From Rheinheimera sp. 1928-s (GTDB lineage Bacteria; Pseudomonadota; Gammaproteobacteria; Enterobacterales; Alteromonadaceae), in NCBI RefSeq assembly GCF_029269265.1, contig NZ_JARIXP010000004.1, forward strand, positions 248,001 to 312,000: a stretch of 64,000 nt of DNA. Reading direction: 5' to 3'. The number at the start of each line of letters is the position of its first letter. The first letter of the stretch is position 1. A program made the position numbers and the translations under genes. Positions 5,031 through 34,033 of this stretch are shown here, in pieces. The notes under the pieces are model-generated. The model was given only the letters and a program-made list of their open reading frames with translations. It was not told the DNA's origin and did not search any database.

Positions 5031-5923
5031 TTATACAGTTCCACTTTCGCCCCGCTAAATACGCAGGCTACTTTTCCATATTTATCCAGTGCTTTCAGAT
5101 AAAGCTTTAAAAACAGCTGCTTATTCACAGGATAGGAAAACAAACTGACGATGGAGATGCAGATCAGCAGCAACATATTTTTAACTGTGAACCAGAGTTT
5201 CTGCGCTACTGTTGCTTGTTCTAACCGGTATCGCGCATAGGTTTGGCCTACTCTGAGCGCGCGCTTCTTCAGATAACTTAGATTCAACCTGTCACTTTCC
5301 ACACCTTCGTACACTATTGCATCTTTACAAAAAACTAATTTGGCGCCGCGGCAAAACATTCTGAAAAACAGCTGTGCATCCTCACCGCCCGTAGTGCCGT
5401 AGGCGACGTCAAATTTCATGTTGTTTTTTTCCAGAAATAATCTGTTGATCAAGGTACAACCACTTCCACCGCTACTTAATTCAGTTCCGGTTTCATGTGT
5501 TTTTCTCGAAAAGAAATTGCCTTCTTTAATCCAGGCAGGAGTATGGTCAGGGTAACAAGGGACAACATGGCCAAACACAACGTCTGCAGCATAAGTGTCA
5601 GCTGTCTCTTTAAGTCGGAGCAGCCATAACTCATCGGCCACTTCGTCATCGTCAATCGAAGCTATCCAGTCTCCCCTGGCTTTTTCAAGCAGCTTGTTTC
5701 TCGCCGCTGAAATGTTTTTTACCGGCTCTGAGTAATAGTTCAGTTGATGTGGAAAATCGCCCTGAAAAGCATCTATGGTAGCCCTTGCGCTAAGCTGTTC
5801 ATCGTTATCAACAACAAGAACTTCAACATCCACTCCCTGTGGAATAACCAAACGGGCTATGCTTTGCAAAGTCAGCCGCAGATGTTCCCGCTTGTAAGTG
5901 CACATGCAGATCGAGATCAGCAT
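5027..5923 (-). CDS. GT2 family glycosyltransferase
   Basis: This 298-residue GT-A fold enzyme begins [15 protein letters not shown], the classic GT2 nucleotide-binding start, and carries the metal-binding acidic motif in [16 protein letters not shown] at about residue 92. [11 protein letters not shown] (about residue 186) is the acceptor/catalytic E-D pair. A hydrophobic C-terminal segment suggests membrane association. The start overlaps the 3' end of ugd by 7 nt, so it is in the same operon. It should be an inverting transferase for the lipid-linked repeat unit; the sugar is unknown. Confidence 0.85.
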
Positions 5924-7281
5924 ATAGAAGGTCTGCCGATGGAATAGTACTTCACCCCCTGTTCAAGCATTTTTGCAAGGTTAAACAAGTTACGGCCATC
6001 AAACACAACCATATCTTTCATATTGCTTGCTAAAATTTCTGCATTTAATGTCTTAAACGACTTCCATTCGGTGCAGATCACCAAGGCGTCAGCGCCCTTT
6101 AATGCAGACTCTTTAGTCCCGGTTAATGCTAATTTATCTGTGCTGCCGTAAATACGCTGCGCTTCCTCCATAGCTTCGGGGTCATACGCCTGAACTTTGG
6201 CTCCTGCCGCCCAAAGCTGTTCCATCAACACCCGGCTTGGTGCCTCACGCATGTCATCTGTGTTGGCTTTAAAAGCCAAGCCCCATAATGCAAAAGTTTT
6301 GCCTTTTAAACTGTCTGTTACATTGCCTTTGCCAGTGGTGGTTTCCACTTCGTAATGCTTGCAAATCAGCTCAAATAGCTTTTCTTTTTGCTTAGTGTTT
6401 ACCGCTTCAACGGCGTCAAGAATGCCCGGCACGTAACCATATTGTTTTGCTGTTTGTGCCAGCGCCTGCACGTCTTTTGGAAAGCAACTACCACCGTAGC
6501 CACAGCCTGCATAAATAAAGTGGTAACCAATGCGGGGATCGGAACCTATTCCTTTGCGCACATTTTCAATGTCAGCCCCCACCAGCCCGGCAATATTAGC
6601 CATCTCATTCATAAAACTGATTTTGGTGGCTAACATGCAGTTGGCGGCATACTTGCTCAGCTCACTGCTGCGTACATCCATCACTATTATTTTTTCGTGA
6701 TTGCGGTTAAAAGGCGCATACACCTCACGCATAATGCTTTCGGCAGAGTCGGAGCTGGTGCCAATTACAATGCGGTCTGGCCGCATAAAATCGGCTAAAG
6801 CTGCGCCTTCTTTTAAAAACTCGGGATTGGAGACAACATCAAACTCAGCAACACTATTTCGCTCTTTCAGCGCCTGCTGAATGACAGCTGTTACCTTGTC
6901 CGCCGTACCGACAGGCACGGTGCTTTTGTTGACGATCACCTTGTAGTTGCTCATCAACTGCCCTATGGTCTCGCCAACTGCCATCACATATTGCAAGTCA
7001 GCTGAGCCGTCTTCATCGGGTGGTGTCCCTACCGCAATAAAAATAACCTCTGCATGTTGCACCGCTTCTTCAGCGCTGGTGGTAAACCTTAAATTGCCTT
7101 GTGCAATATTACTTTTCACCACACTTTCCAGACCAGGCTCATAAATAGGGATCCCGCCCTGTTTCAGGCTGTCAATTTTACTTTGATCGATGTCCACACA
7201 AATAACATCGTGACCTACATCAGCCAGGCAAGCCCCGGTGACCAGCCCTACATAACCTGTACCAAAAATACTTAACTTCAT
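5917..7281 (-). CDS. ugd: UDP-glucose 6-dehydrogenase (copy 1)
   Basis: The 454-residue protein oxidises UDP-glucose to UDP-glucuronate with two NAD+. It has the N-terminal Rossmann motif [20 protein letters not shown], the middle-domain segment FLKEGAA, and the catalytic cysteine in [13 protein letters not shown] at about residue 264. The C-terminal UDP-binding domain contains [20 protein letters not shown]. It is downstream of galU in the same orientation, and together the two make UDP-GlcA from glucose-1-phosphate. A second, very similar copy is at 26351-27730. A hairpin with a U-tract lies between galU and this gene and may reduce read-through. Confidence 0.96.
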
Positions 7282-7363
7282 CTGTTATTCCTTTGACTTT
7301 GAAGCATTATAAAAAGCGGTTCGCTCAACAATAGAAAGCACTGTAGGGAGCACTGTGCATGGC

Positions 7364-7394
7364 AAAAACCAAGCCTGTTCAGGCGATCAGGCTT
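7364..7394 (-). terminator. Putative intrinsic terminator/attenuator after galU copy 1
   Basis: On the minus strand a 7-bp stem AAGCCTG/CAGGCTT with a 10-nt loop overlaps the galU stop region and is followed by GGTTTTTG. It sits between galU and ugd, so it could partly uncouple the two. The U-tract is short; efficiency is uncertain. Confidence 0.5.
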
Positions 7395-8311
7395 AGCTTT
7401 TTATTGCTTAATAAAGTCTGCAGATAGACGCCAAATTCCGCCCCTAAGGCAGGGTCTTTCAGTGCATAAGTGACGATCGCTTCCAGATAGCCCAGTTTGC
7501 TACCGCAGTCATGACTGCGGCCCACAATCCGATAAGCTTCCATGTTTTGCTCTTTCAGCAATTGAGCCAGGGCGTCTGTCAACTGAATTTCATTGCCAGT
7601 CCCAGGTTGGGTAAAACGCAGGATGTCCATCACAGCAGGAGACAACACATAACGACCGGTAATCGCCATATTAGAAGGAGCTTCATCTATGGGCGGTTTT
7701 TCAACCATGGCGTGCAGCCGCACAGATTGCCCCGCTGCAATAGGTTCACCGTTTAAGTCAACCACACCATAAGAACTGACAGCGGCATCCGGAACCGCTT
7801 CAACCATCACCTGACTGGCGCCGGTAAGCTGGTAACGATCAAGCATGGTTTTGAGGTTTTCTTGTTTTAAATTGCTTTCGTACTTGCTGATAAGAACATC
7901 AGGCAGCAATACCGCAAAAGGTTCGTTCCCAATCACTGGCGCAGCGCATAAAATGGCATTCCCAAGACCCAGAGCCATGGGCTGACGCACAGAAATCACT
8001 GTGACATGTTTGGGATTAATAGAGCGCACTTCTTCCAGCAAGGAGCGTTTTACTCTTTTTTCCAGCTGGGTTTCTAATTCAAAGCTGGTATCAAAATGGT
8101 TTTCGATCGAGTTCTTGCTGCTGTGAGTAACCAATACGATTTCAGTAATACCTGCAGCGGCGGCTTCTTCAATCACATACTGGATCAGCGGTTTATCCAC
8201 AACAGGCAACATCTCTTTAGGAATGGCTTTTGTTGCTGGCAACATACGGGTACCCAAACCCGCAACTGGAATAACGGCTCTGGTGACTTTACGAAATTCT
8301 GACAACTGCAT
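7379..8311 (-). CDS. galU: UTP-glucose-1-phosphate uridylyltransferase (copy 1)
   Basis: The 310-residue enzyme makes UDP-glucose from UTP and glucose-1-phosphate. The nucleotide-binding signature [25 protein letters not shown] begins at residue 14, followed by [12 protein letters not shown] and, later, [11 protein letters not shown] and the sugar-binding VEKP region. The length is normal for bacterial GalU. It is the promoter-proximal gene of the minus-strand unit and is divergent from the small exported protein at 8927. A close paralogue is at 27860-28792. Confidence 0.96.
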
Positions 8312-8926: not shown

Positions 8927-9481
8927 ATGAAAAAATTCACTATTCTTGCTGCTTTATTTGCAGCTGCAATCTTTAGTTCAGGTCAGGCGATGGCGCAGGA
9001 TGCGGCGACTGTTGAAGCAGTCATAACTCAGTACCAAACATTGGTTGCGCACTATCAAAGCCAAAACATGACCTCAGGACAAGCCGGAACTCAGGCTCTG
9101 GCGGATATCGAAGCTGAAATTCAGGCCATGATTGAAGCGGCGCGGGATCAGGAAACCAAAGAAGCAATACTGCAGGCAGCTCTGGAAGCCGCTGCAGTAT
9201 TGTGTATTGTCAGGCCAGGAGATCCGGTTCTGAATCAAAATCTGACGCTGTGTAATGACGCCGTAAGTGCAGTGCTTGCCGCTGCCTCTGCCGCAGGCAT
9301 GACTGCAGATAGCATCGCTGCTGTTGCGGCTGCTTCAACTGGTGTAGATCAGGACCTGATCGCAGAAGAAACAGCTTCAGGTGGTGGTGGCGGTCTGTCA
9401 GGCCCTGGTACCTCAGCTCCCGGAGCTCCTGGTTTTGGCGGTGGTTCAGGCGGCGGCGGTGGCACTGCATCCGGTAATTAA
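8927..9481 (+). CDS. Small exported Ala-rich protein with Gly-rich C-terminal tail (tail protein 1)
   Basis: I do not recognise a named family. The 184-residue protein has a clear Sec signal peptide (MKKFTILAALFAAAIFSSGQAMA, cleavage near residue 23) and a helical Ala/Gln-rich body with VITQYQTLVAHYQ near residues 32-44. Two cysteines (93 and 109) bound an insert absent from its paralogue. A low-complexity Gly/Ser/Pro linker then leads to the terminal GFGGGSGGGGGTASGN. The protein at 32061-32594 has the same architecture and an identical last 16 residues. The gene stands alone between galU and the EPS export operon, like a matrix-protein gene. Function is unknown; a secreted matrix or polysaccharide-linked protein is inference. 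Confidence 0.75.
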   Translation: MKKFTILAALFAAAIFSSGQAMAQDAATVEAVITQYQTLVAHYQSQNMTSGQAGTQALADIEAEIQAMIEAARDQETKEAILQAALEAAAVLCIVRPGDPVLNQNLTLCNDAVSAVLAAASAAGMTADSIAAVAAASTGVDQDLIAEETASGGGGGLSGPGTSAPGAPGFGGGSGGGGGTASGN

Positions 9482-10079: not shown

Positions 10080-11477
10080 ATGAACACTCACACAAGTTTT
10101 AAAGCTGAAGATAGTGGTCTCTGCTTCCTAAACCGACTTTTTGACATAGTGGCCATTGGCGCCGCTTTATACCTGAGCCTTAAACTTTATGGTCAGGTCG
10201 TGACAACCAGTTACATTATGTTGTACTTCACTGTGATGGCTGTTTACTTATATGCAGCGGAGTCGGTACAACTATATCGCTCATGGCGGGTTGGTTCTTT
10301 TTCACACAATATCCTTTTTGTAGGGATTTGCTTATTTTTAGCTTTTAGCATGATGCTGCTAATAACCTTTGCCTTAAAAAATACGGCTAGTTACTCGCGT
10401 GTAGTTTTTATGGGCTGGTTTACTTTGGCTTTTTGTTTTTCGGCACTGTGGAGAATTGCAGGCCGTATGCTGAAAAACACATTGCATAAAAGAGGGTTTA
10501 GCACCAGACGAATTGCTGTTATTGGTTGCACAACCAATGCCAGACGGCTTATTACAGAGATTGCCAATAAACCAGAACTCGGGCTACATTTTTTTGGCGT
10601 CTATGATGACCGCGTGCCTGATCGCCTGCCAGAGTGTGGCGAAATGTTGCACGGTAAAATTGATGAATGTGTGGAATCGGCCAGAAATGGTGCCTTCGAC
10701 AAACTTTATATCACTTTGCCATTATCTGCAGATAAACGTATTTCGGAAATTATCCAACGTTTAGGCGATACCACTGTCGACGTGCATATAGTGCCGGATT
10801 TACTGCTGTATAACCTGATGCATGCCAGATTGGGCAATATAGGCAGTGTCGAAACACTAAGTGTATTTGAATCGCCCTATTACGGAGCCAGAGATTGGAT
10901 CAAGCGCTCATTTGATGTCAGCGTTAGCGCTATAGCCCTTTTATTACTTGCTGTTCCGATGCTGGTTATAGCGGCAGCAGTCAAGCTGACCAGCCGTGGT
11001 CCGGTGTTTTTTAAACAGGATCGGTACGGATTGGACGGCAAGCCAATCAAGGTCTATAAATTTCGTAGCATGACGGTCCAGGACAACGGCGACACTGTAA
11101 TTCAGGCAAAAAAAGGCGATGCACGAGTTACTCCTTTGGGCGCGGTGTTACGCCGGACATCACTTGATGAGTTACCACAGTTTATTAATGTATTAAAAGG
11201 GGACATGTCTGTTGTTGGTCCTCGCCCACATGCTGTGGCGCACAATGAGCAATATCGTAAGCTGGTTGCCTTTTATATGCTCAGACACAAAGTGAAACCA
11301 GGCATTACGGGCTGGGCACAAATAAACGGCTGGCGCGGTGAGACAGATTCATTAGAAAAAATGGAAAAACGCGTAGAGTTCGACCTGAATTATATTAAAA
11401 ACTGGTCACTCTGGTGGGACGCAAAAATTGTATTTTTAACCTTTTTCCGGGGTTTTACAGGAAAAAATGTCTATTAA
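10080..11477 (+). CDS. Undecaprenyl-phosphate sugar phosphotransferase (WcaJ/VpsL-like)
   Basis: This 465-residue enzyme starts repeat-unit synthesis by moving a hexose-1-phosphate from a UDP-sugar to undecaprenyl phosphate. It has four N-terminal membrane segments (about residues 20-125), a central Rossmann-like CoA_binding_3 region beginning IAVIGCTTNARRL, a fifth membrane segment near residue 285, and the catalytic bacterial sugar transferase domain. That domain shows KFRSMTVQDNG, RRTSLDELPQFINVLKGDMSVVG and the near-terminal GITGWAQINGWRG. It heads the operon 10080-16977, whose order matches my recollection of Vibrio vpsL-M-N-O-P. The specific hexose, probably glucose or galactose, is not determinable. 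Confidence 0.92.
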   Translation: MNTHTSFKAEDSGLCFLNRLFDIVAIGAALYLSLKLYGQVVTTSYIMLYFTVMAVYLYAAESVQLYRSWRVGSFSHNILFVGICLFLAFSMMLLITFALKNTASYSRVVFMGWFTLAFCFSALWRIAGRMLKNTLHKRGFSTRRIAVIGCTTNARRLITEIANKPELGLHFFGVYDDRVPDRLPECGEMLHGKIDECVESARNGAFDKLYITLPLSADKRISEIIQRLGDTTVDVHIVPDLLLYNLMHARLGNIGSVETLSVFESPYYGARDWIKRSFDVSVSAIALLLLAVPMLVIAAAVKLTSRGPVFFKQDRYGLDGKPIKVYKFRSMTVQDNGDTVIQAKKGDARVTPLGAVLRRTSLDELPQFINVLKGDMSVVGPRPHAVAHNEQYRKLVAFYMLRHKVKPGITGWAQINGWRGETDSLEKMEKRVEFDLNYIKNWSLWWDAKIVFLTFFRGFTGKNVY

Positions 11478-11489
11478 AAGGGAAACTTT

Positions 11490-12671
11490 ATGAAATCCAA
11501 GTTAGCTGTTATGGTGGCATTGGCATGTGCCAGCTCGCAGGTGTTTGCTGTAGAACCGCAGTCTATTCAGACTGGGTCAGGTTTTGATATTACGCCACTA
11601 CTGACCACTGGTTTAAAATTTGACGACAACATCACCAGCAGCAGTGCCAACGAAATAGACAGCTGGATCCTGACCGCAGTACCTTCAGTAAAAGCAGTGC
11701 TGGATGATGGTGTCACCAAAACAGAATTCAGCGCAGCTTTATTTAACGGCACTTACCTAGACAGTAGTGATGACAATTTTACTGACACTATGCTGGGTGC
11801 TCTGTTTGACACCCAACTGTCAGAGCAAGGAAAGTTTAATGCCAAAGCAGATTTTGTCTGGGGTCATGAAGACAGAGGTACAGGTATTACTGAAGGCCTG
11901 AGCAACAGTCAGGATGAGCCTACCCGATTTAATAACCAAACTGTATCTGGCTACTATGAATACGGCGCTCAAGCAGCCCCTGCCCGCGTGCGTTTTGGTG
12001 CTAAGTACTTTAATAAAGAGTATATGAATCAGCGCGAAGTAACACAGTTCCGTGACTACGACTCAGTACTGGGTGGTGTGAACTTTTATTACGATACCTT
12101 ATCCGGCACTACGGCAGTACTGGAAACAAGTATTGAAGACACCAGTTATGATTTTGTCGACCCTACAGCACCACGCGACAGTAAAGATAGCAATGTGAAA
12201 GTAGGTGCTGAATGGCAAATTAGTGCTTTAACTTCAGGTGAAGCAAAAATTGGTTATCAGAAAAAGGATTTTGATGACAGTGCACGCGAAGATTTCAGCG
12301 GTGTATCCTGGATAGTGAATGCCACTTGGTCACCACTGACTTACAGTAATATTAATGTAGGCACAGGCCGCAAAGCCAAAGACCCGTTGCAGGGCGGCGA
12401 TTACATTAAAGAAACCACTTATGTTGTAGGCTGGAGCCATAACTGGACTGACGCTATGCAAACCAATCTGTCGTACAACAGAATGGAAGAAGACTATGTG
12501 GGTATCAGCCGCAAAGACGAGAACGATTCTTACACGGCCAGTGTAAAATATGCCTTCCGTCGTTTTGTTGACGTGACGTTGTTTACTACTGTGACAGATA
12601 AAACCTCTTCTGTGCAGGGTATTGAATTTGATCGCAATATCACAGGCTTGAGTTTCGACTTTTCGCTGTAA
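11490..12671 (+). CDS. Outer-membrane beta-barrel protein of EPS operon (EpsL/VpsM-like)
   Basis: The 393-residue protein has a signal peptide (MKSKLAVMVALACASSQVFA). The rest alternates polar and aromatic residues, with many short beta-strand-like stretches, and ends in the terminal-Leu pattern GLSFDFSL, as expected of an outer-membrane barrel. Its place between the initiating transferase and the Wza-like gene corresponds to EpsL-type barrels in EPS operons, which may help secretion through the outer membrane. AGGGAAA lies at good distance before the ATG. The barrel assignment is firm; the exact role is inferred from position. Confidence 0.8.
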   Translation: MKSKLAVMVALACASSQVFAVEPQSIQTGSGFDITPLLTTGLKFDDNITSSSANEIDSWILTAVPSVKAVLDDGVTKTEFSAALFNGTYLDSSDDNFTDTMLGALFDTQLSEQGKFNAKADFVWGHEDRGTGITEGLSNSQDEPTRFNNQTVSGYYEYGAQAAPARVRFGAKYFNKEYMNQREVTQFRDYDSVLGGVNFYYDTLSGTTAVLETSIEDTSYDFVDPTAPRDSKDSNVKVGAEWQISALTSGEAKIGYQKKDFDDSAREDFSGVSWIVNATWSPLTYSNINVGTGRKAKDPLQGGDYIKETTYVVGWSHNWTDAMQTNLSYNRMEEDYVGISRKDENDSYTASVKYAFRRFVDVTLFTTVTDKTSSVQGIEFDRNITGLSFDFSL

Positions 12672-12724
12672 CGCAGTGTTTTTAGTTCGTATTCATAGTG
12701 TTCACAAACTTTAGGCTAAACCTC

Positions 12725-13252
12725 ATGCAACAACTCGTAGTGCTGTTTGTTGCCCTTTGTATCAGCTGGTCGTCCTGGGTAGTGGCCCAGGACGATTCCG
12801 GTTATTTATTAGGGCCAGGCGACAAAATTATTATTCAGGTATACGGTGAAGAAGAGTTGAAAATAGAAACTCAGCTTACCGACAGCGGCAAAATTAATTA
12901 CCCTTTTCTTGGCGAAATAATGGCAAAAGGCCTGACGATTAAGCAGCTGGAAAGCCGCATTTATAGCGGCTTGAAAGGCGACTATTTTGTTGAGCCCAAC
13001 GTATTTGTCGGTATTGTGGAATACCGGCCATTCTTTATACATGGCGAAGTAAAACAACCTGGAGGTTACCCTTATAAACCGGGTATGACGGTCAACCAGG
13101 CCATAGCTTTGGCCGCAGGTTTAACTGAACGCGCCTCTAGGGAAAAAATCTTTATTTACCGCGAAGGCAATAAAACGCAAGCCTTAAACGCTAACCTGAA
13201 CTCGAAAGTCAGTGCAGGCGACACCATTACCATAGAACAGAGATTCTTTTAA
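12725..13252 (+). CDS. Polysaccharide export protein, Wza/VpsN-like
   Basis: I place the start at ATG 12725 (175 residues), which gives a compact signal peptide (MQQLVVLFVALCISWSSWVVAQ). An in-frame GTG at 12698 would add nine residues. The mature part begins GYLLGPGDKIIIQVYGEEEL, the poly_export domain signature, followed by IMAKGLTIKQLESRI and a SLBB-like repeat with FFIHGEVKQPGGYPYKPGM. It is a short member of the outer-membrane export channel family, without a long C-terminal barrel helix. The barrel encoded upstream may complete the pore. It is followed 2 nt later by the co-polymerase gene. Confidence 0.92.
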   Translation: MQQLVVLFVALCISWSSWVVAQDDSGYLLGPGDKIIIQVYGEEELKIETQLTDSGKINYPFLGEIMAKGLTIKQLESRIYSGLKGDYFVEPNVFVGIVEYRPFFIHGEVKQPGGYPYKPGMTVNQAIALAAGLTERASREKIFIYREGNKTQALNANLNSKVSAGDTITIEQRFF

Positions 13253-13254
13253 TT

Positions 13255-15447
13255 ATGGCAGTAACGGACTTAGTGGTTAGCCCTGCACCACAGCAGGATG
13301 TAATAGACTTACGTAAATACTTCAGCATTATTAATATTCATAAATGGCGCATTTTTAGCCTGGCTGTATTGGTTACGTTAATTACTGTATTAGTGGTATT
13401 AAATATTCGCTCTCAGTACTCAGCTACTGCCACTTTATTAATAGAATCCCAGCAAGCCAAGGCTGTATCTATTGAAGAAGTTTATGGCATGAACTCTAGC
13501 CAACAGGAGTATTATTTAACCCAATTTGAAATTTTAAAATCCCGCTCTATTGCTCAAACTGTAGTGGAGCGTATGGATTTAACCAATCACCCGGACTTTG
13601 AAGTAAAACCAGGCTTAATGGCGCGCTTACGCGATTTATTACCTTTTTTACCTACCACCGAAAGTACCTTAACCGAAGCCGAATTAGCGCATAAAGCCCG
13701 CGAAGATTTAATTAGTGCGTTTCAGCAGCGATTAACTATAAGCCCTATCCGTAAAACCCAGCTGGTCAATATTAGTTTTCAAACCTACACGCCTGCGTTA
13801 GCTGCAGATATAGCCAATGCTGTTGCTGATACTTATATAGAAAGCCAGTTAGAAGCCAAACTGGGTATTACGCAAAAAGCCGCCAGTTGGTTAGGGGGAC
13901 GTTTAGGTGAGTTACGGGCCCAGTTGGATGATTCCGAAGCCCGTTTACAGGCCTACCGTGAAAAAGAAGGTTTAATAGACGTAGAGGGTGTGCGTGGTTT
14001 AGGCGCAAGAGAGCTGGAGCGATTATCAGAGGCTCTAACCGAAGCGCGTTCCCGCAAAGCTCAGGTCGATGGTTTTATGCGGGTGATACAGCAATATGGC
14101 ACAGATAAAATTGAGCGCTTAGAAAGCTTGCCTGAAATTACCGCCCATAAAGGTGTGCAGGATGTTAAAGCCCAACAGGTTTTAACTGAGCGCCGGGTAT
14201 CTGAACTGTCAAAAATTTATGGTGCCAAACACCCAAAACTATTAGCAGCCAAAAGCGAACTGACTGCAGTGCAGGATAATTTGCGCAGCCAGATTAAAAA
14301 GCTAATAGCAGGTATAGAAAACGAGGCTCAGACCATACAGGAAACTGTAAATTCTTTAGAGGCGGAAATAACCAAAGCTAAAACTTTGTATCAGGATGTA
14401 AGCCTGAAAGAAACTACTTATCAGCGTTTACAACGTGAAGTGGCAACCAATAAACAGCTATTTGATACATTTTTATCAAGGCAAAAAGAAACTGAAGTCA
14501 CCAGTGACTTTAACTCCGCCATAGCACGTTTTACGGATAAAGCGGTAGCAGCCACAGAACCAGTAGCGCCCAAACGTAAGCTGATCGTAGTGTTGGCTTT
14601 TATAGCAACTTTAGGCTTTGGTGTAATGCTGGCCTTTGTGCTGGATGCGTTAAACGACACTATAAAATCACCACAAGAAGTAGAAAGCTTATTAGCCCAA
14701 CGTTCCTTAGGTTTTATTCCTGCTATACCTCATAAAAAGACAGTGGATTTACCTATTCATACCTTTTTTAGTGAGCAGCATAAACAGTATGCCGAGTCGG
14801 TGCGCAGCATACGTACCAGTTTAACCTTGCTGGCGCTAGACCGTAGCTTAAAAACTATTGAAGTGACCTCTTCAGTGCCAGGTGAAGGTAAATCAACAGT
14901 AGCTGCCAATATAGCTTTTGCTTTTGGCCAGATGGAAAAAGTATTACTGGTAGACGCTGATATGCGCCGCCCTACTCTGGCCAAACGTTTTGGTTTACCA
15001 GCCTATCAGCCGGGTTTGGCCAATATTATTGCCGGCCGCGAGCAAATAGACGACTGTATAGTGGTAGATGAAGCCTCAGGCATTAGCCTATTACCAGCTG
15101 GTAATGTGCCACCTAACCCGTTGGAGTTGTTGGCTTCAGAACAATTTAGCAAAGTAATAGCAGAGCTGGCATTACGATTCGATCGCATTATTGTCGACAC
15201 CCCACCAGTGCAGGCAGTCAGCGACCCGCTGATCATCGCCAAACAAATGGATGCAGTAGTTTATGTAGTGGCTGCTGATCATACCAGAGGCGGTGCGGTA
15301 AAAAGTGGTGTAGCTAAGTTACTGCAAGCCGAAAACAACCTCTATGGTGTGGTACTGAATAAAGTAGATATGAAAAAAGCAGCTCAGGTATACGGCGATT
15401 ATGGCCAGTATGGTTATTACCACTACTACAGTAGCGAAAAGAGTTGA
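13255..15447 (+). CDS. Polysaccharide co-polymerase with BY-kinase domain (Wzc/VpsO-like)
   Basis: The 730-residue inner-membrane protein sets EPS chain length and drives export. Two membrane segments (about residues 34-52 and 440-462) flank a periplasmic Wzz/GNVR domain with a long coiled coil (about residues 200-400). The cytoplasmic C-terminus is a bacterial tyrosine kinase: Walker A SSVPGEGKSTVAANIA, Walker A' LLVDADMRRP, Walker B IIVDTPPV, and a terminal Tyr cluster (YGDYGQYGYYHYY) that is the expected autophosphorylation site. The PHP phosphatase encoded just downstream should reverse this. Confidence 0.95.
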   Translation: MAVTDLVVSPAPQQDVIDLRKYFSIINIHKWRIFSLAVLVTLITVLVVLNIRSQYSATATLLIESQQAKAVSIEEVYGMNSSQQEYYLTQFEILKSRSIAQTVVERMDLTNHPDFEVKPGLMARLRDLLPFLPTTESTLTEAELAHKAREDLISAFQQRLTISPIRKTQLVNISFQTYTPALAADIANAVADTYIESQLEAKLGITQKAASWLGGRLGELRAQLDDSEARLQAYREKEGLIDVEGVRGLGARELERLSEALTEARSRKAQVDGFMRVIQQYGTDKIERLESLPEITAHKGVQDVKAQQVLTERRVSELSKIYGAKHPKLLAAKSELTAVQDNLRSQIKKLIAGIENEAQTIQETVNSLEAEITKAKTLYQDVSLKETTYQRLQREVATNKQLFDTFLSRQKETEVTSDFNSAIARFTDKAVAATEPVAPKRKLIVVLAFIATLGFGVMLAFVLDALNDTIKSPQEVESLLAQRSLGFIPAIPHKKTVDLPIHTFFSEQHKQYAESVRSIRTSLTLLALDRSLKTIEVTSSVPGEGKSTVAANIAFAFGQMEKVLLVDADMRRPTLAKRFGLPAYQPGLANIIAGREQIDDCIVVDEASGISLLPAGNVPPNPLELLASEQFSKVIAELALRFDRIIVDTPPVQAVSDPLIIAKQMDAVVYVVAADHTRGGAVKSGVAKLLQAENNLYGVVLNKVDMKKAAQVYGDYGQYGYYHYYSSEKS

Positions 15448-15479: not shown

Positions 15480-16208
15480 GTGTATGATCTGCATTGCCAT
15501 ATCATTCCTGGCATAGACGATGGTGCCAGGGATATGCAAGAAGCTTTGGCTCTGCTGCAAATAGCAGAGCAGGAAGGCATCAGCCATATGGTGATTACCC
15601 CCCATATTAATCCTGGCCATTTTGACAATACCAGTAGCATTATTCAGCAAGGTTTATCCGAACTTAAAGCCGCCAGCAAAAATGCCGGCCTGCAGATACA
15701 ACTGGCCGCGGCAGCTGAAGTGCGTTTATCTACAGAGATACTGACATGGGCTGAGCGTGATATGTTGCCTTTTATCGGCAGCTACCAGGGCTTTCATGTC
15801 TTGCTGCTGGAGTTTCCTCATAGCCATATTCCGGCTGGATCAGACAAACTGGTGAAATGGTTGTTAAGTAAAAATATCCTGCCGATGATAGCTCACCCGG
15901 AGCGTAACAGAGATGTACAAAGTGATCCGGCAAAATTAGCACCTTTTATCCGACTAGACTGCTTATTTCAGCTGACTGCCAGTTCTGTACTGGGTGATAT
16001 GGGCGAACGCAGTACAGCCTTATCTGTGCAGTTACTAAAGCAAAAGCTCTTTCATGTGATGGCCACTGATAGTCATAATTTATTGCGTCGCCCGCCTAAG
16101 TTAAAACAAGCGGCGCAGCAGGTCAGCGAACTGGTCAGTGCAGACTATGCAGAACAATTAGTACTGCAAATGCCAAAACAAATCAGCGAGGTGTTGTTTG
16201 CAGGCTAA
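15480..16208 (+). CDS. PHP-type tyrosine-protein phosphatase (CpsB/YwqE-like)
   Basis: This 242-residue metal-dependent phosphatase starts with GTG at 15480, chosen because AGGGGGA lies just upstream. The N-terminus YDLHCHIIPGIDDGARD holds the first metal-binding His pair. Further metal-site motifs are ITPHINPG, AAEVRL, IAHPERNR and the C-terminal ATDSHN. CpsB/YwqE proteins dephosphorylate the Tyr tail of the partner BY-kinase. The gene's position next to the Wzc-like kinase supports that. Many proteobacterial EPS operons use a low-molecular-weight phosphatase (Wzb) instead. Confidence 0.9.
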   Translation: MYDLHCHIIPGIDDGARDMQEALALLQIAEQEGISHMVITPHINPGHFDNTSSIIQQGLSELKAASKNAGLQIQLAAAAEVRLSTEILTWAERDMLPFIGSYQGFHVLLLEFPHSHIPAGSDKLVKWLLSKNILPMIAHPERNRDVQSDPAKLAPFIRLDCLFQLTASSVLGDMGERSTALSVQLLKQKLFHVMATDSHNLLRRPPKLKQAAQQVSELVSADYAEQLVLQMPKQISEVLFAG

Positions 16209-23387: not shown

Positions 23388-24860
23388 TCAATTGTTACTT
23401 TTAACTATTTTTGGGCAACACAATAACACGATTAAAGGAACAGTTAGAAATCTAAATAAAAACTGAGAAACGACATTGCTATCAGACATAAGAAGTTGAA
23501 TAGAGAGGAGAACTAATACTGGGACAATCAAATTGTATACACCATCTTTTGGAAAAACTTTCGAGTAGCCATCAATCCAGGAGATTACAACCCCGAATAT
23601 GTAGAAAAAAGTTAACCCGAAAAATATACCAAAATTTATTACGAACTCTCCATAGCCGCCTGCAAGCAAAGTAGTGTAACTGCTATCAGTGAAACTGTAG
23701 TCACTCCAAAATATACCAGTCTTTTCTTTTATTGCAGTGACTGGTTTATTAGGCAACAAAAAGCCCGGCACAAACGAAACAGCGCCTGCAACCAAAGTCC
23801 TACCGTATGATAATGGATACTCGTCATTCCAGTATGTTTTCAGAATATATGACTGCACGTCTGCTCTTCCTGCATCCCTTACAAGAGCAAATTTTTCCGA
23901 GTCCTCTATATATTTCTGCTCAAATACCTGCGCTTTAATATCTTTATCCCATAGACCTTGCAACCCTTCAATACCGCCAAACTTATATAAACTATAGCTG
24001 GTCATAAACAGGAAAAAAATAGCACCTAGAGCTACCAACAACTTCAAACTTAGCTCTTTAACATTATTATGATATACAACAACAAACCAGAACAATGACC
24101 ATACAGTAGTGCTCCTACTGCCTCTCAAACCACCAAAAAGCATATTTAACAGAAACAAAAACACCAACAAAGAAACCAACACTTTAACATCTCGGGACCA
24201 AGACTTATCTTTGATAAATAAAACCAAATATATAGCAACTAAATTAGGAAGTGATTCTGAAAATGTAAATAAGAAACCGAAGCCATCGTATGGGTTATAA
24301 TTTTGTATGGAGTCCTCTAATCTTAACTCATATGCATTTAGATAACCGTCATACCCTCCCATTTTCACTAGAACGACAATCTGACATATAAGACAAAAAA
24401 CAATACCAACAATAAAAGGCATGTGCATTTTATTTGTGTCTATATGATAATTAAGTGGACGCCTAAAATTGACCTTTGTGCTTTTGCAACCAATCGCTGT
24501 AATAAAAAAACCTAACAAGCAAAGAATAGCCCAGCCTCCGACCCAGCCGCTCATTCCATCGGCCACTGGAATACTCGGCCAGTAATCCCATATTAATTGA
24601 TTAAACGGGACAATATAAAAAAAAGAGAATCCGAAAGCTAAAAATATCGACAAAGCTGAAAAATAACTTTTCCTACTATTCAATGTGTATAAGTTTTCAT
24701 ATAAAAAAACCACACCCAAAATTGTAACAGGAAAAAAAGACCATACCATACTAGCCCCCTCATCAATCAACCTGAAGAGTGTATATGATACAATTGCAAT
24801 AAAGCTAAAAATCAATAGAACCACATCTATTGATTTATTATCCTGCCTTATAAAACTCAC
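23388..24860 (-). CDS. wzy: Oligosaccharide repeat-unit polymerase (Wzy-like)
   Basis: The 490-residue protein has twelve or more hydrophobic segments and a large loop at about residues 290-400 containing RDAGRADVQSYILKTYW and LAGAVSFVPGFLLPNKP. This layout is that of the oligosaccharide repeat-unit polymerase (O-antigen polysaccharide polymerase) family. It should join flipped units in the periplasm. Polymerases are poorly conserved, so the call rests on topology, loop motif and the lack of another candidate between wzx and the epimerase. The gene is AT-rich. Confidence 0.78.
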   Translation of the reverse strand: MSFIRQDNKSIDVVLLIFSFIAIVSYTLFRLIDEGASMVWSFFPVTILGVVFLYENLYTLNSRKSYFSALSIFLAFGFSFFYIVPFNQLIWDYWPSIPVADGMSGWVGGWAILCLLGFFITAIGCKSTKVNFRRPLNYHIDTNKMHMPFIVGIVFCLICQIVVLVKMGGYDGYLNAYELRLEDSIQNYNPYDGFGFLFTFSESLPNLVAIYLVLFIKDKSWSRDVKVLVSLLVFLFLLNMLFGGLRGSRSTTVWSLFWFVVVYHNNVKELSLKLLVALGAIFFLFMTSYSLYKFGGIEGLQGLWDKDIKAQVFEQKYIEDSEKFALVRDAGRADVQSYILKTYWNDEYPLSYGRTLVAGAVSFVPGFLLPNKPVTAIKEKTGIFWSDYSFTDSSYTTLLAGGYGEFVINFGIFFGLTFFYIFGVVISWIDGYSKVFPKDGVYNLIVPVLVLLSIQLLMSDSNVVSQFLFRFLTVPLIVLLCCPKIVKSNN

Positions 24861-27730: not shown

Positions 27731-27780
27731 TCCCTTTCCTTTCTATCTATATGGCTTTTAAACCCGCCATACTTTGCTTT

Positions 27781-27808
27781 CCGGGCGGAGATAAACCCCG
27801 CCCCTACG
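27781..27808. repeat. REP-like GC-rich palindrome
   Basis: CCGGGCGG and CCCGCCCC-TACG flank a 9-nt A-rich loop between galU copy 2 and ugd copy 2. The same pattern (GTAGGG-C-GG...CCGCCCG read on one strand) occurs twice in opposite orientations at 52455-52537. It may also act as a transcript stabiliser or attenuator here. Confidence 0.5.
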
Positions 27809-27859
27809 TTATGCTCGCCTGATTTTTCGGACAGAGATAAACACCAAACCTACATCAGA

Positions 27860-28792: not shown

Positions 28793-29355
28793 AACAAACT
28801 CCTTCTCTATTTTTCTGCCGAATCAAAGTTGTATTGAAACTGTTGGTATTCGCTCAACTGCTCAGCAAAGGCCGTTCCTTGCCCAAAATATGCCTAAAAT
28901 CGAAGGCTGGTATTCATCAACTTTATTTGTGCATTGTGACAACAAAGTTAAAACGCGATCGACTATACAACAGGACTAAATTGTTCACAAATTAAGCATT
29001 TATTGTGCCAGTAAAAAATTAGTAAATTCGATAGTTGCGATTTGATAAATTTGGCAAATATGGTAAATTTGATTGATGTTTTCCTTAATTCACTCCAGCG
29101 GTTCGGGCTATGTTGGTGCATGATCGCCCCAAACTAATGCACAAGCTCTGACTATTAATTATTCATGATCCTGCACCTTGGCAAGTCAGGTAGAAAGTGG
29201 CAAATTAATGTATCTTTTTCAACCAAATCTGGTTTACTCAAAACAAAGCATCTCTTTAAAACGCTTCGAATGCGGATTAGATGGAACCCTATGTCATGGA
29301 AGTTACCTGAGTGAGTGCTAATGTCAGACGCACAGCAGGTTGCGCTGGGAGGTTT
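28793..29355. promoter_or_regulatory. Divergent intergenic region galU copy 2 / lapG
   Basis: About 560 bp hold no gene. The middle is AT-rich with repeated 'AAATTTG/GATAAATTTGG' runs (29035-29080). The block 29105-29145 repeats, with changes, the one at 8489-8534 upstream of galU copy 1, making it a candidate regulator-binding site shared by the two polysaccharide loci. Confidence 0.45.
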
Positions 29356-30009
29356 ATGCTACACAAGTATGCTTTTGTAGCAGTGCTGTCTCTTTCCATA
29401 TCTGTCTTTAGCAATGCCAGTTATTTACTGCCAGTGTTTAAGCCAGAAATGCTGGAGAGTATCCGCAAGCAGTATGGCGACCAAGCGTTGAGCAGAGTGG
29501 AACTTTGGCGTGATTTGCTTGAAGAAAGCAAGGCTGAATCTGACTGGGTCAAAGTAAATAAGGTTAATAAATTTTTCAATGATCAGATCCAATATAAGTC
29601 TGATCAAGCACATTGGGGACAGGCGGATTATTGGGCCACGCCACTGGAGACTCTTGGCACTGCAGCTGGCGACTGTGAAGACTTTGCGATAGCAAAATAT
29701 GTATCCCTGAGGGCAATGGGTGTACCGGATAATCAACTACGGATCATGTATGTCAGGGCATTGTCAGTAAATGAACCCCATATGGTGCTCATTTATATGG
29801 AAACTGAAGACTCAGTCCCATTGGTTTTAGACAATCTGATAAAAAAAGTTCAGCCGGCAACCCGCAGACCTGACCTGAAACCTATTTACGGCTTTAACGC
29901 CGAAGGGTTATGGCTTGCAAAAGCTCAGGGACTGGGACGTAAGGTTGAAGGTAAAACAGGCGGTTCGAACTGGCAGGATTTGCTAAACAGAATTGAAAAG
30001 GGAATGTAA
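29356..30009 (+). CDS. lapG: LapG-like periplasmic cysteine protease (transglutaminase-like, BTLCP)
   Basis: I place the start at ATG 29356 (217 residues), just after GGAGG; the GTG at 29311 would put 15 polar residues before the signal peptide (MLHKYAFVAVLSLSISVFSNA). The catalytic triad of the bacterial transglutaminase-like cysteine proteases is visible: Cys in GTAAGDCEDFAIAKY, His in VNEPHMVLIY and Asp in LVLDNL. LapG cleaves LapA-type giant adhesins near the N-terminus at a (T/A/P)AAG site and is held inactive by c-di-GMP-bound LapD. The gene for a LapD-like partner follows at once. No giant RTX adhesin gene is in the window. Confidence 0.88.
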   Translation: MLHKYAFVAVLSLSISVFSNASYLLPVFKPEMLESIRKQYGDQALSRVELWRDLLEESKAESDWVKVNKVNKFFNDQIQYKSDQAHWGQADYWATPLETLGTAAGDCEDFAIAKYVSLRAMGVPDNQLRIMYVRALSVNEPHMVLIYMETEDSVPLVLDNLIKKVQPATRRPDLKPIYGFNAEGLWLAKAQGLGRKVEGKTGGSNWQDLLNRIEKGM

Positions 30010-30014
30010 CTGTT

Positions 30015-32042
30015 ATGGCTCATAAATTTTGGGGGAAACTCCCGGGTATTTCGTTAAGAACACAGCTGCACTTATTGATAGTGCTGGTGGCCTTATTTAC
30101 CTTTTCGTTCAGTTTGTATATCTCGGTGCAAAGTACACAGAATTATCTGAATACTCAGATGAAATCTCATGCTCAGGATGCTGCAACAAGCTTAGGTTTG
30201 TCGATGTCAGCTTATATGGACGACCCGGATCTGGTTATAGCTCAGACCATGGTCAATGCTATTTTTGATTCAGGCTACTATGCAGATCTTGAATTTAAAA
30301 CCAGCAAAGGCGAAGTAAAAATTAAGCGACAAAACCCTATTGAATACGACGAAGTACCCCAATGGTTTGTTGCGCTTTTTCCGCTATCGCCACCAATACA
30401 AAGCAGCGAAGTAAATAATGGCTGGATGGTTGCGGGTGTATTGTCCATTCAGTCGAACCCGGGTATCGCTTACAAAACGCTGTGGCAACAGGCCAGGCAG
30501 AGCTTTTATAGCATTGCAGTGATCACTTTATTAAGTGCGCTCTTTATTCAGTTGATTGTGTTTGCTGTGCTGAACCCGTTACGCCGCATTGAGATTCAGG
30601 CGCAGGAAGTGGGTAAAAAGAACTTTTTACAACAGGAAAAGCTACCTTTTACTACTGATCTTCGCTCTGTGGTGAAAGCCATGAATGCGATGGTGGCAAA
30701 TATTCAACGTAGTTTTAAGTCCTTGAGCTTGCAAGCTGATGAGCTGAAAGTAAAAGTTTTCACCGATATGCTGACAGGCCTGGGCAACAGAAGGCTGCTG
30801 GAGCAACGCTTCACTGCAGAGAAGAATGAGCAAAAAGCCCATGACTTACATCTGCATATTGGCATGATGAGCCTGCATTCTCTGACAGATGTGCATCACC
30901 GCCAGGGTTTTGAAGCTGCAGATCAATATATCTTGCTGGCAGTTAAAGAATTTAAAGAAGCGCTGGAACAGATGACCAATAACCAGCTGTTCCGGCTTGG
31001 CGGTAGTGATTTCATCTTTTTAAGTCATGCCAGTGCAGACGTGCTGGAGCCTCAGGTGCAGCAGTTAAGTTCTAAGTTGAAACTGCTCGACAGTGTATTT
31101 TTCCCAAATGGTTTTGCCTCAGTCGCACTGATGGAGGTGGAACCCGAAGACACTCTCCCCCACTGCCTTTCCACTTTAGATAGCGCCATTATTCAACGTG
31201 CGCAGCAGCCGGATTTACCTTTACTTATTAAAGACGAAAGTATGCTGATTAAGCCTGAAGGCAGAATGGCATGGCATGCAGTTATAAAAGATCTGATCCA
31301 GAACCAGAATTTTGAGTTGTGGGCACAGCCTGTAGTGAATCCGGATAAGTCTATTGAGTACATTGAAACCTTCGTGCGATTTTATTATCTGCATTCCCAG
31401 CTGTCGACGGCTGAGGCTTATGCCATGGCTGAACAGCAGGGGTTGTCGTTGCAGTTGGACCAACAGGTGATCCATTTTATTCTGCAACAAGTGAAAAACG
31501 AACCTAGCCACACTTATGCGATTAATTTGTCCCAGGGCGCCGTTAGTTCAGCGTCGTTTTTACAGTGGCTGGATAAAGAGTTGCAGCAACTGACTGTCAA
31601 AGTTCGTCTGGTGTTTGAGGTGTCTGAGTACTCTATTTTGCGCGCACCTGACGAAACCAAAGCTCTGATGAACACAATTAAACGCAACAGATGCAAAGTA
31701 TGTATCGAACGTTTTGGTTCAAGTATGACCACCTTCAAATACCTGCAAGGTCTGAATGTGGACTATGTAAAAGTTGACGGAGCCTACATCACAGCTCTGA
31801 ATGATCAGGACAACAAGTTCTTTATCAAGACCTTATGTCAGATTAGTCACGGCATAGGTATCAAGGTTCTGGCACCTCATATCGAATGCGAACAGATCAT
31901 GGATAATTGTTTTGCAGCAGGCGTGAATGCTGTTCAGGGAAACTGGTTGCTGGCGCCGCAAAAAGTAAATGTACAGATGAAAAAATCTATCTTGACACAA
32001 CCGTTCATTAACCTAGAATTGGTTCATTCGCCTAAATATTAA
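30015..32042 (+). CDS. lapD: LapD-like c-di-GMP receptor (degenerate GGDEF-EAL)
   Basis: The 675-residue inner-membrane protein has membrane segments at about 17-37 and 168-190 bracketing a periplasmic LapD/MoxY-type domain, then HAMP, GGDEF and EAL domains. Both enzyme sites are degenerate: GGSDF replaces GG(D/E)EF near residue 328 and ETF replaces EAL near residue 451. So it should bind c-di-GMP rather than make or break it. In the known LapD mechanism the periplasmic output domain sequesters LapG when c-di-GMP is bound to the EAL domain. It starts 5 nt after lapG, so the pair is co-transcribed. Confidence 0.9.
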   Translation: MAHKFWGKLPGISLRTQLHLLIVLVALFTFSFSLYISVQSTQNYLNTQMKSHAQDAATSLGLSMSAYMDDPDLVIAQTMVNAIFDSGYYADLEFKTSKGEVKIKRQNPIEYDEVPQWFVALFPLSPPIQSSEVNNGWMVAGVLSIQSNPGIAYKTLWQQARQSFYSIAVITLLSALFIQLIVFAVLNPLRRIEIQAQEVGKKNFLQQEKLPFTTDLRSVVKAMNAMVANIQRSFKSLSLQADELKVKVFTDMLTGLGNRRLLEQRFTAEKNEQKAHDLHLHIGMMSLHSLTDVHHRQGFEAADQYILLAVKEFKEALEQMTNNQLFRLGGSDFIFLSHASADVLEPQVQQLSSKLKLLDSVFFPNGFASVALMEVEPEDTLPHCLSTLDSAIIQRAQQPDLPLLIKDESMLIKPEGRMAWHAVIKDLIQNQNFELWAQPVVNPDKSIEYIETFVRFYYLHSQLSTAEAYAMAEQQGLSLQLDQQVIHFILQQVKNEPSHTYAINLSQGAVSSASFLQWLDKELQQLTVKVRLVFEVSEYSILRAPDETKALMNTIKRNRCKVCIERFGSSMTTFKYLQGLNVDYVKVDGAYITALNDQDNKFFIKTLCQISHGIGIKVLAPHIECEQIMDNCFAAGVNAVQGNWLLAPQKVNVQMKKSILTQPFINLELVHSPKY

Positions 32043-32060
32043 TCAATAAGGATATCTGAT

Positions 32061-32594
32061 ATGAAAAAAATGAACACTATTGCTGCAGCGGTGTTTGCTG
32101 CTTCGCTGTTCAGTACAACTGCTATGGCTCAGGACACTTCAGCTGTTGATGCTGCTGTTGCTCAATATTCAACTTTAGTTGCTCAGTATCAGGCTGAAGG
32201 TATGACTGAAGAGCAAGCTGAAGCCGCTGCTGCCGAAACAATTGAAAGTCAACTGCAAGCTTTAATTGCTGCTGCTCCGACCGCAGAAGCAAAAGAAGCT
32301 TTAGTAGCTGCTGCTCTGGCAGCCGCTGCTACTTTAGGTGATGCAGCTGTTGCTGCTGTAGCTTCAGCTGCTGCTGCAGCCGGTGTACCAGCTGATACTA
32401 TCACTGCTATCGCAGCTGCAACTCCTGGTGTGAACGTTGCTACTGTTGCTCAGGCAACTGCTGCTGGTCCGGCCACTGGTGGTGAGGGCGCTGGAGCTGG
32501 CACTGGTGCAGGCACTGGAACAGCTGGTGCTCCTGGTGGCGCTGGTTTTGGTGGCGGTTCAGGTGGTGGCGGTGGCACAGCCTCAGGTAACTAA
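32061..32594 (+). CDS. Small exported Ala-rich protein with Gly-rich C-terminal tail (tail protein 2)
   Basis: The family is unrecognised. The 177-residue paralogue of the protein at 8927 has a signal peptide (MKKMNTIAAAVFAASLFSTTAMA), the shared AVAQYSTLVAQYQAEGM block, and an extremely Ala-rich helical body (about residues 52-130). A Gly/Ala/Thr linker leads to the same terminal 16 residues, GFGGGSGGGGGTASGN. It lacks the Cys-bounded insert of paralogue 1. It contains TAAG at residues 133-136 and AAAG at 105-108, which match the recognition motif of LapG, the protease encoded two genes upstream; in so Ala-rich a protein this may be chance. AAGGATAT precedes the start. It lies 18 nt after lapD and ends in a strong terminator. 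Confidence 0.75.
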   Translation: MKKMNTIAAAVFAASLFSTTAMAQDTSAVDAAVAQYSTLVAQYQAEGMTEEQAEAAAAETIESQLQALIAAAPTAEAKEALVAAALAAAATLGDAAVAAVASAAAAAGVPADTITAIAAATPGVNVATVAQATAAGPATGGEGAGAGTGAGTGTAGAPGGAGFGGGSGGGGGTASGN

Positions 32595-32617
32595 TAACTG
32601 TAACTTTTCAGTAATAT

Positions 32618-32641: not shown

Positions 32642-32692
32642 TTATACTCTGATACATTTTGAGTATCGGTGCGATATGGAAAGCGCTCTCCG

Positions 32693-34033
32693 ATGGCTAC
32701 ACGACAATTTCTGTTCACTGTTATCCGAGCCCTGTGTTGTTTCACCCTATTTTGGTGTCCTATTCCGCTGGCTAGTAACAGACCCTGGGCCTGGGCTATC
32801 CTGGAACTTCTGGTCGCACTCATTTTCAGCCTGCACTTAATTTCAGTGTACCGTGGCCGTTCGCCCTGGTTTGCCGGACGCTGGCAACAACTCAGCCTTG
32901 TGCCTTTTATGGCTGTATTAATAGTGCTTGGCGCGCAACTCTGGTCTCCAGCTCCCTGGCTCAGCACTGTGGATCCCAATCAGACGGAGATCCTGTGGTT
33001 TAAAACACTATTTTACGGGCTCTTTGCCTGGATGATCAGCAGCTATTTCCGCACCGATAGCGAACTTAAACTGTTGTGCTACGTCGTTGTGGCCAGTGGT
33101 GTTTTTCAGGCTACTTATGGCTCCATCCTCAATTTACAAGGCGTTGAAACCTCGCCGGTTTTTGGGGTGCCTGAAGGCAACAGAGCTCGCGGTTCTTTTG
33201 TATACCAAAACCATTTTGCCAACTATCTGGCCATGACTCTGGCACTGGGAGTAGGCTTACTGATGGCAGAGTTATCCAGTAGGGCTATGCAGTGGAACTG
33301 GCGGAATTTCAGCCGCACTGTGCTGGAGTCTTTACTCAGTACCAAAATTTTGCTGCGTCTGGCGCTGGTGATTATGGTAATTGGTTTGATCTTAAGCCGC
33401 TCCCGTATGGGCAACGCGGCCTTTTTCACCGCCTTGCTGGCGATATCTTTGTACGCCATTTGGTTTTACAAAAACAAACCTGCCTTGCTTAAACCTCTGG
33501 TGATCAGTATTTTTGTGCTGGATATGATTGCTGTAGGGTCTATTTTTGGCATTGAAAAGCTGCAGCAGCGTTATGAAGAAACCTCCTTTAGTTCGGAAAC
33601 ACGGGATGAAGTGGTCCGGGACAGCTTGCCTATTGTTGCTGATGCTCCTTGGTTTGGTCATGGTGGCGGCACTTTCTATACAGTATTCCCGGCTTATCAA
33701 CCGAGCCACTACTCTGCCTTTTACGATCACGCTCACAATGAATACCTGCAATTTTCAATTGAGATGGGTATTCCCTTAACTCTGCTGCTTGGGCTCTGGC
33801 TGTTATGGATGTTGTGGCTAAACTTACAAACCATGAGGTTAAAACAGAATAAACTAAGCAGAGGCATAGCTTTCGGCTGCGCCATTGCTATTGTGCATAT
33901 GTTGATCCACAACCTGGTGGATTTCAATTTACAGGCACCCGCTAATGCGGTGCTATTTATCACAGTGTTGTGTTTAAGTTGTATTGTTTTTACACGACAA
34001 GACATAAGAGGAATAGGTTCCACTCCAGCCTAA
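32693..34033 (+). CDS. O-antigen ligase (Wzy_C) family membrane protein
   Basis: I place the start at ATG 32693 (446 residues), preceded by GGAAAG; a GTG at 32669 is the alternative. The protein has about ten to twelve membrane segments, the motifs GNRARGSFVYQNHFANYLA and SRSRMGNAAFF, and the large periplasmic loop. That loop carries GHGGGTFYTVFPAYQP and YDHAHNEYLQFSIEMG, the His-x-Asn-Glu-Tyr signature of Wzy_C enzymes. Family members are WaaL ligases, Wzy polymerases or protein O-oligosaccharyltransferases (PglL/PilO); which applies is open. Being next to a secreted Gly/Ser/Thr-tailed protein makes a protein-glycan transferase worth considering, but that is inference. Confidence 0.82.
   Translation: MATRQFLFTVIRALCCFTLFWCPIPLASNRPWAWAILELLVALIFSLHLISVYRGRSPWFAGRWQQLSLVPFMAVLIVLGAQLWSPAPWLSTVDPNQTEILWFKTLFYGLFAWMISSYFRTDSELKLLCYVVVASGVFQATYGSILNLQGVETSPVFGVPEGNRARGSFVYQNHFANYLAMTLALGVGLLMAELSSRAMQWNWRNFSRTVLESLLSTKILLRLALVIMVIGLILSRSRMGNAAFFTALLAISLYAIWFYKNKPALLKPLVISIFVLDMIAVGSIFGIEKLQQRYEETSFSSETRDEVVRDSLPIVADAPWFGHGGGTFYTVFPAYQPSHYSAFYDHAHNEYLQFSIEMGIPLTLLLGLWLLWMLWLNLQTMRLKQNKLSRGIAFGCAIAIVHMLIHNLVDFNLQAPANAVLFITVLCLSCIVFTRQDIRGIGSTPA

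Follow-up and report, generated by a model that had tools for sequence, protein, structure and literature searches.

A recurrent C-terminal tail encoded between a LapG/LapD switch and a Wzy_C ligase-like gene suggests a possible cuttable polysaccharide tether in Rheinheimera

Two small exported proteins, P0001 and P0002, are encoded in a 64,000-nucleotide stretch of the Rheinheimera sp. 1928-s genome (the window: contig NZ_JARIXP010000004.1, positions 248,001 to 312,000) and share their last 16 residues, GFGGGSGGGGGTASGN. The gene for P0002 is the third of four same-strand genes, in the order lapG, lapD, P0002, wzyC (29311-34033; Table 1). This position of a tail gene, between a LapG/LapD switch and a ligase-like gene, suggests a cuttable tether for a slime polysaccharide. 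We propose tentatively, with slightly less than even confidence, that the tailed proteins are miniature counterparts of LapA, in which a dedicated Wzy_C ligase would use the tail as its acceptor and the whole would form a polysaccharide anchor that is cut under the control of cyclic di-GMP (c-di-GMP). An earlier note on this DNA, made from the sequence alone, had singled out the tail; absent from it were the ligase-like gene paired with the tail and the LapG-type site that separates body from tail in a gene next to lapG-lapD.

The first line of evidence comes from the codons of the tail. Eight of the 16 differ between the two genes, by eight nucleotide changes, and all eight changes are synonymous (p ~8e-5 under a simple equal-rate model), while the 151 aligned codon pairs outside the tail comprise 34 identical, 47 synonymous and 70 amino-acid-changing pairs. 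The pattern ACNGCNWSNGGNAAYTRR has four matches in the whole genome, namely P0001, P0002, the end of a frame of only seven residues, and a match whose last codon, TGG, is not a stop; there is no third real protein end with the TASGN-stop pattern. Because the codon changes are all synonymous while the bodies change residues, and because no third TASGN end exists, the tail is, judging from these comparisons, under selection as a peptide. The earlier note had described the shared 16-mer and its silent differences, and had read them as purifying selection and not recent gene conversion; translation and codon comparison bear it out on each of these points. Only these two genes were seen to carry the 16-mer in exact form, and a ugd-galU gene pair lies beside each; both points would suit mere chance, or a duplication or gene conversion that happened recently in a single strain. 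Given eight synonymous differences and related tails at 37 loci, some of them in other genera, such an origin is very improbable, and chance and gene conversion were rejected.

What the relatives keep is a looser form of the tail. The orthologue in Rheinheimera sp. YQF-1, the nearest named relative found, ends in GFGGGSGGGGGSASGN, and the common form is a Gly-rich stretch followed by about [T/S]-A-S-x-N. The idea of a recurrent tail on exported proteins stands, whereas the supposed invariance of the exact 16-mer does not. In several genera, homologues retain a tail of this kind, again with Ser close to the end, so that the tail neither varies freely nor is restricted to two genes of one strain.

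The second line of evidence is the pairing of the tail with wzyC. Since the tail itself could mislead a search, the neighbouring Wzy_C protein was used as bait (E 1e-30 or better) in 145 genomes of the family, one per species. It matched 38 of them, and a gene with a Gly-rich tail lies upstream of wzyC in 37, directly in 36 cases and next but one in genome G093; the remaining genome, G084, gave the weakest match and has wzyC behind wza, wzc and cpsB. A direct search with P0002 reached only nine of 147 genomes because the bodies are too diverged, and a pattern-based scan with P0001 yielded one relative in genome contigs and none in plasmids. When a composition-based tail signature was applied to the 616 open reading frames (ORFs) of at least 90 residues in 37 regions, overlapping ORFs included, it selected 29, all of which are among the two genes before wzyC; eight tail loci of those regions were missed.

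The 39 tail proteins considered below were chosen by Gly content and length, and a homologue whose end is not rich in Gly, as is the case directly before wzyC in G093, thus falls outside the set. A Ser is present within the last five residues of all 39. In alignment A2, which has 34 rows (P0001 and 33 of the 39 tail proteins, with L027, L041, both L042, L046 and L047 omitted), no column is invariant except that of one Gly and that of the tail Ser. Mean identity among the tail proteins is 51% over the last nine residues against 24% over the bodies. Variants of the tail include GAGGTGGGDTTASTN, GTGGGGTTASNN, NGNGGPGGGAITPSVN, GGRNGG..AASNN and GGGGGGISPNQ. The proteins are 146-372 residues long, apart from a shortened ORF of 103 residues in G062, and their starts, called by eye, look exported in every tail ORF but that of G062, the start in G093 being lipoprotein-like. 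Taken together with its pairing, the tail is probably tied in function to the Wzy_C protein.

The Wzy_C protein itself resembles a known ligase. Its model (mean predicted local distance difference test score, pLDDT, 84.9) has the O-antigen ligase WaaL (7tpg) as best Foldseek match (E 6e-8); the two superpose by VIA-align over 374 aligned residues (Z 23.9, root-mean-square deviation 4.6), with the HAHND residues of the model falling on those of WaaL. WaaL joins O-antigen to the lipid A-core, whereas wzyC goes with a protein gene.

Two other accounts of this pairing are to be weighed here. The tailed protein could be an ordinary matrix protein released by LapG, its low-complexity tail having a role in the matrix and its link to wzyC reflecting mere hitch-hiking in an exopolysaccharide (EPS) locus. 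The EPS setting, with wzc inside 22 of the 36 tail regions, agrees with this account; however, the adjacency of tail and wzyC survives in G052 and G087, which have no lapG-lapD and whose bodies are unlike the others, and we consider the account improbable. In those two genomes, and at class-level loci, wzyC lies inside a bbp2-wza-wzc EPS operon, a setting that favours protein-primed synthesis, with the Wzy_C protein as EPS polymerase and the tailed protein as the primer on which a chain starts. That explanation is harder to reconcile with the window, where a separate polymerase candidate under the cut-off (Table 1), a second Wzy_C gene and a gene resembling a flippase (PF01943, slightly below cut-off) are also present, and we give it little credence.

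The third line of evidence is the linkage to lapG-lapD, together with a LapG-type site. The order lapG-lapD-tail-wzyC is found at 34 of the 37 loci (33 and the window); the three without a nearby LapG are in G052, G087 and G118. The window lapG is the only PF06035 match in the genome, and the stretches that hold its Cys-His-Asp triad can be aligned with 4u65 and 4fgo. Passages of PMC3032545 describe LapG as cutting LapA between two alanines, leaving AGPSAAGTGG; a cut at the site predicted in P0002 would give AGPATGG. Between body and tail, many of the tail proteins read like AGxDPTxVSxATAAG, and the four LapA proteins of the same family that were read have LEATAAG (two), DTAAG and APAAG, for example GDGDLLDSLEATAAG. 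An xAAG is present between body and tail in 25 of the 34 lapG-linked loci, 24 by script and in addition L027; in shuffles of the same stretches (2000 rounds) the mean was 5.7 and the maximum 14 of 34, to be compared with the 24 found by the same script. Exact TAAG was observed 22 times as against 1.5 in shuffled stretches, and a di-alanine is present in 29 of the 34, each of the other five having one changed residue. In G052 and G087, tail and wzyC are kept and the LapG-type site is absent. At L027 (genome G089, 2955-4070) the TAAG lies 191 residues from the end, with a long Asp/Thr-rich linker leading to the tail; because this linker is so long, the arm between site and tail is, on the evidence of this locus, free to vary in length. 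In our judgement, the tailed proteins are probably substrates of LapG.

Structure prediction places the site at a boundary. In the model of P0002 (mean pLDDT 78.2, predicted template modelling score 0.63) the last helix ends at residue 134, after which there is no regular structure and pLDDT is near 50; TAAG lies at that border. A profile search of the PDB with A2 gave a designed helical bundle as the only match below E 0.01, the rest being at E 0.2 and worse. Among the latter, 5ix9 ('Antifreeze protein'), which we take to be an RTX adhesin N-terminus and treat as a hint only, matched profile positions 130-157, the LapG-site stretch, at E 0.26. A2 also matches helical-repeat proteins of about 250 residues that have no tail, four of which were read (L192, L196, L189, L190); these were rejected as family members, being body relatives without the tail. 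The gene near L192 and L196 is presumably rpoA-like.

A tail that pairs with wzyC and is preceded by a LapG-type site could equally be a docking or regulatory peptide, which, unmodified, would bind the Wzy_C protein or the Wza/BBP2 exporter, so that the LapG cut would switch polymerisation or export. Both observations suit such a peptide as well as they suit an acceptor. By itself, however, docking leaves the constant Ser at the tail end unexplained, as it does a partner from the ligase/O-linked oligosaccharyltransferase superfamily, and we regard it as rather unlikely.

LapA-type matches were found in 9 of the 34 genomes with lapG-linked tails and in 27 of the 33 other PF06035-positive genomes (p 7e-6; tallied by hand at E 0.001, tail proteins excluded, with a statistic that ignores kinship), and part of this association may be due to shared descent. 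The genome of strain 1928-s has one LapG and no LapA match. Five genomes (G024, G054, G089, G117, G141) combine a tail locus with a LapA over cut-off; they have two LapGs, the second within ~10 kb of LapA. A tree was made of 29 LapG loci, a subset of the matches (30 were laid out, L118 having no LapG frame). Nineteen of them are tail-linked, eight from LapA-positive genomes form one supported clade nested among these, and two long-branch rows stand apart. Because of that nesting, the tail-linked LapGs are, on this tree, not one clade. When the LapA retention model NF033682 was run for adhesins, it also matched the tail proteins of G004, G089, G093, G098 and G141 (E 4e-5 to 4.4e-4).

In the tether that we propose, the signal sequence would bring the tailed protein to the periplasm, where its helical body may stay as a plug. 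The adjacent Wzy_C ligase would recognise the Gly-rich tail and join EPS, or another glycan linked to undecaprenyl diphosphate, to the near-C-terminal Ser; the chain would leave through the Wza/BBP2 exporter and be held by the body. In Pseudomonas, LapD lets go of LapG when c-di-GMP falls. LapG freed in this way could cut xA|AG between body and tail and thereby release the polymer, the Gly-rich stretch being a flexible arm between the LapG site and the acceptor Ser.

Several observations weigh against this proposal. A covalent glycan on the tail is in our estimation an even proposition, and retention of the body in the periplasm and cutting by LapG are likewise postulated, the latter from a predicted site. 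P0001 itself has TASG in place of xAAG; of the 34 lapG-linked loci, the five without a di-alanine read TASG, PSAG, PARG (twice) and TAVG, four others read TAAP or TAAL, and at L043 (G093) the aligned place is TASG, with AAAG just after it. In G118, AAAG and the tail are kept and no LapG was found. The gene directly before wzyC in G093 encodes a body relative with another, tail-less end. In G062 (L017:1068-1379) the ORF has no signal-peptide end and a longer match contains in-frame stops; this tail gene may be broken or misread. TfpO substrates have a terminal Ser, whereas that of the tail usually occupies the third position from the end. The fold search with the P0002 model gave no match at E 0.001 or better. 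NF033682, when run on eight relatives chosen to include the five named above, matched six at 14.5-24.3 bits, none reaching the cut-off of 50; it matched neither window protein. Finally, a Wzy_C profile matched 30 of 369 genomes of the class, 28 of them outside the family, and none of the 26 of these that were readable (within 1.5 kb; L079 and L090 left out) has a TASxN tail beside wzyC, so that Wzy_C alone does not predict the tail. G278, outside the order, counts on both sides: no tail gene lies beside its wzyC, but in favour of the proposal lapG, lapD and wzyC stand together, and a homologue ending ASAAG...GSGSGGGGVASPS is found ~22 kb away, beside bbp2-wza-wzc-cpsB.

Other Gly/Ser-tailed proteins are encoded beside wzyC in five of the 26 genomes (G265, G330, G355, G324, G401). 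In G401, from another order, a small exported protein (L167:7302-7739) has a Gly/Pro tail ending in GGSPSN and matches the NF033682 retention module at 39.3 bits (E 6.8e-10), below the cut-off of 50; no lapG match was found in the 18 kb read near that wzyC. In G330, wzyC is preceded by two identical tandem copies of a 188-residue exported protein whose tail reads GGSPLTPAEF... (L169:9288-10543). Upstream of wzyC in G355 are the genes of two exported proteins that differ from each other but have the same tail, GGGS.A.QTVSE..P (L168:6697-7963), which looks as if it were another pairing of a tail with Wzy_C.

Comparison with known systems brings out what is shared and what is not. Like LapA of Pseudomonas fluorescens, the putative substrate is encoded beside lapG and lapD and has a helical segment, an xAAG and a Gly-rich stretch; unlike LapA, which is a giant repeat adhesin of a type I secretion system, the tail proteins are small, carry a signal sequence (184 and 177 residues in the window), end in a conserved tail and are paired with a Wzy_C gene. 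We know of no conserved tail or Wzy_C partner for CdrA of P. aeruginosa. According to passages of PMC7484184, LapG cuts CdrA at a C-terminal TAAG, the tetrapeptide predicted as the site in P0002; PMC4694147 describes CdrA as a large adhesin that has a dedicated translocator, CdrB. TfpO, TfpM and PglS are single-substrate O-linked oligosaccharyltransferases with an O-antigen-ligase domain, often encoded beside their acceptor; excerpts of PMC12645811 further state that TfpO and TfpM use a C-terminal Ser or Ser/Thr and that TfpM and PglS accept reducing-end glucose. The candidate acceptor gene in the window likewise adjoins an O-antigen-ligase-domain gene, and the use of reducing-end glucose fits the WcaJ-type starter of the window EPS. 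In contrast to the pilins, the tail protein is no pilin, its Ser is near and not at the end, its last residue is Asn, and nothing in those systems corresponds to the LapG site or to control by c-di-GMP. HvyA of Caulobacter, a relative of LapG, prevents capsulation in G1 cells; it is controlled by the cell cycle, as opposed to the c-di-GMP-linked lapG-lapD here, and the relevant passages of PMC4241560 name no target.

PEP-CTERM, a C-terminal signal on diverse exported proteins that is tied to exosortase and EPS loci (PMC1569441), resembles the present tail in its place and setting. It was rejected, as the earlier note had done, since the tail has no PEP motif, transmembrane helix or basic end; moreover, the exosortase model TIGR02602 has no match in the genome at E 0.01. 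GlyGly-CTERM with rhombosortase was rejected as well, in line with the earlier note, since the tail ends the protein without a transmembrane helix. The genome does have a rhombosortase over cut-off (L202, G000:C20:89642-90091), and because of it there is probably a separate GlyGly-CTERM system. As had been supposed, no named family accounts for the tail proteins: P0001 and P0002 match nothing in NCBIfam or Pfam over cut-off. We found no report of such a tail/LapG/Wzy_C system in the open PMC literature, outside which lie preprints and most subscription journals; there, LapG and O-antigen ligase co-occur in no paper, and LapD, O-antigen ligase and biofilm only in unrelated ones.

In the window, the gene for P0001 precedes a set of EPS genes (wcaJ, the BBP2_2 barrel gene, wza, wzc and cpsB). 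Two ugd-galU pairs (named by reading; 5917-8311 and 26351-28792) stand on the other strand, one ahead of P0001 and one ahead of the lapG-lapD group of P0002, which suggests a segmental duplication around the EPS locus. Because each tail copy adjoins such a pair, one local duplication may have yielded both, and P0001 is probably the duplicate that lost lapG-lapD.

Table 1. Features of the window (all positions in window coordinates)
Feature	Position	Strand	Basis
P0001, exported protein, 184 residues, with tail	8927..9481	+	ORF, translation
P0001, residues 149-152, TASG at place of LapG-type site, second Ala replaced	9371..9382	+	alignment
P0001 tail codons	9431..9478	+	codon comparison
wcaJ, undecaprenyl-phosphate glucose phosphotransferase	10080..11477	+	TIGR03023 over cut-off
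BBP2_2 outer-membrane barrel of EPS system	11490..12671	+	domain match
wza-type polysaccharide export protein	12698..13252	+	domain match
wzc-type chain-length protein/tyrosine kinase	13255..15447	+	domain match
CpsB/CapC-type protein	15480..16208	+	domain match
Separate candidate repeat-unit polymerase	23388..24860	-	TIGR04370 24.2 bits, under cut-off 40
lapG, C93 cysteine protease	29311..30009	+	PF06035 72.1 bits (cut-off 27); NF045674 225.6 bits (under cut-off 320)
lapD	30015..32042	+	LapD_MoxY_N, GGDEF, EAL over Pfam cut-offs; NF045673 338.6 bits (under cut-off 1020)
P0002, exported protein, 177 residues, modelled helical body then unstructured tail	32061..32594	+	ORF, translation, model
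P0002, residues 133-136, TAAG, predicted LapG site (cut expected between the two Ala)	32457..32468	+	site rule from PMC3032545
P0002 tail codons	32544..32591	+	codon comparison
wzyC, Wzy_C (O-antigen ligase) membrane protein, WaaL-like fold	32669..34033	+	Wzy_C 86.9 bits (cut-off 31.7), model

The proposed tether would explain the role of LapG in genomes without a detectable LapA, and it suggests what to seek as the target of HvyA, the restrictor of the Caulobacter capsule (PMC4241560). It is possible, if somewhat doubtful, that the system represents a new class of envelope machinery, in which a polysaccharide ligated by Wzy_C to a small plug protein is held through the exporter and shed by LapD-LapG on a c-di-GMP signal. 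If so, Gram-negative bacteria would have a protein-anchored, Wzy-dependent polysaccharide that a protease can release, with sister versions bearing other tails in other orders. A new single-substrate pair of ligase and tail would also be useful for making glycoproteins. The locus offers a testable model of a tether, made up of a small protein and two predicted enzymes, a ligase and a c-di-GMP-controlled protease for release.
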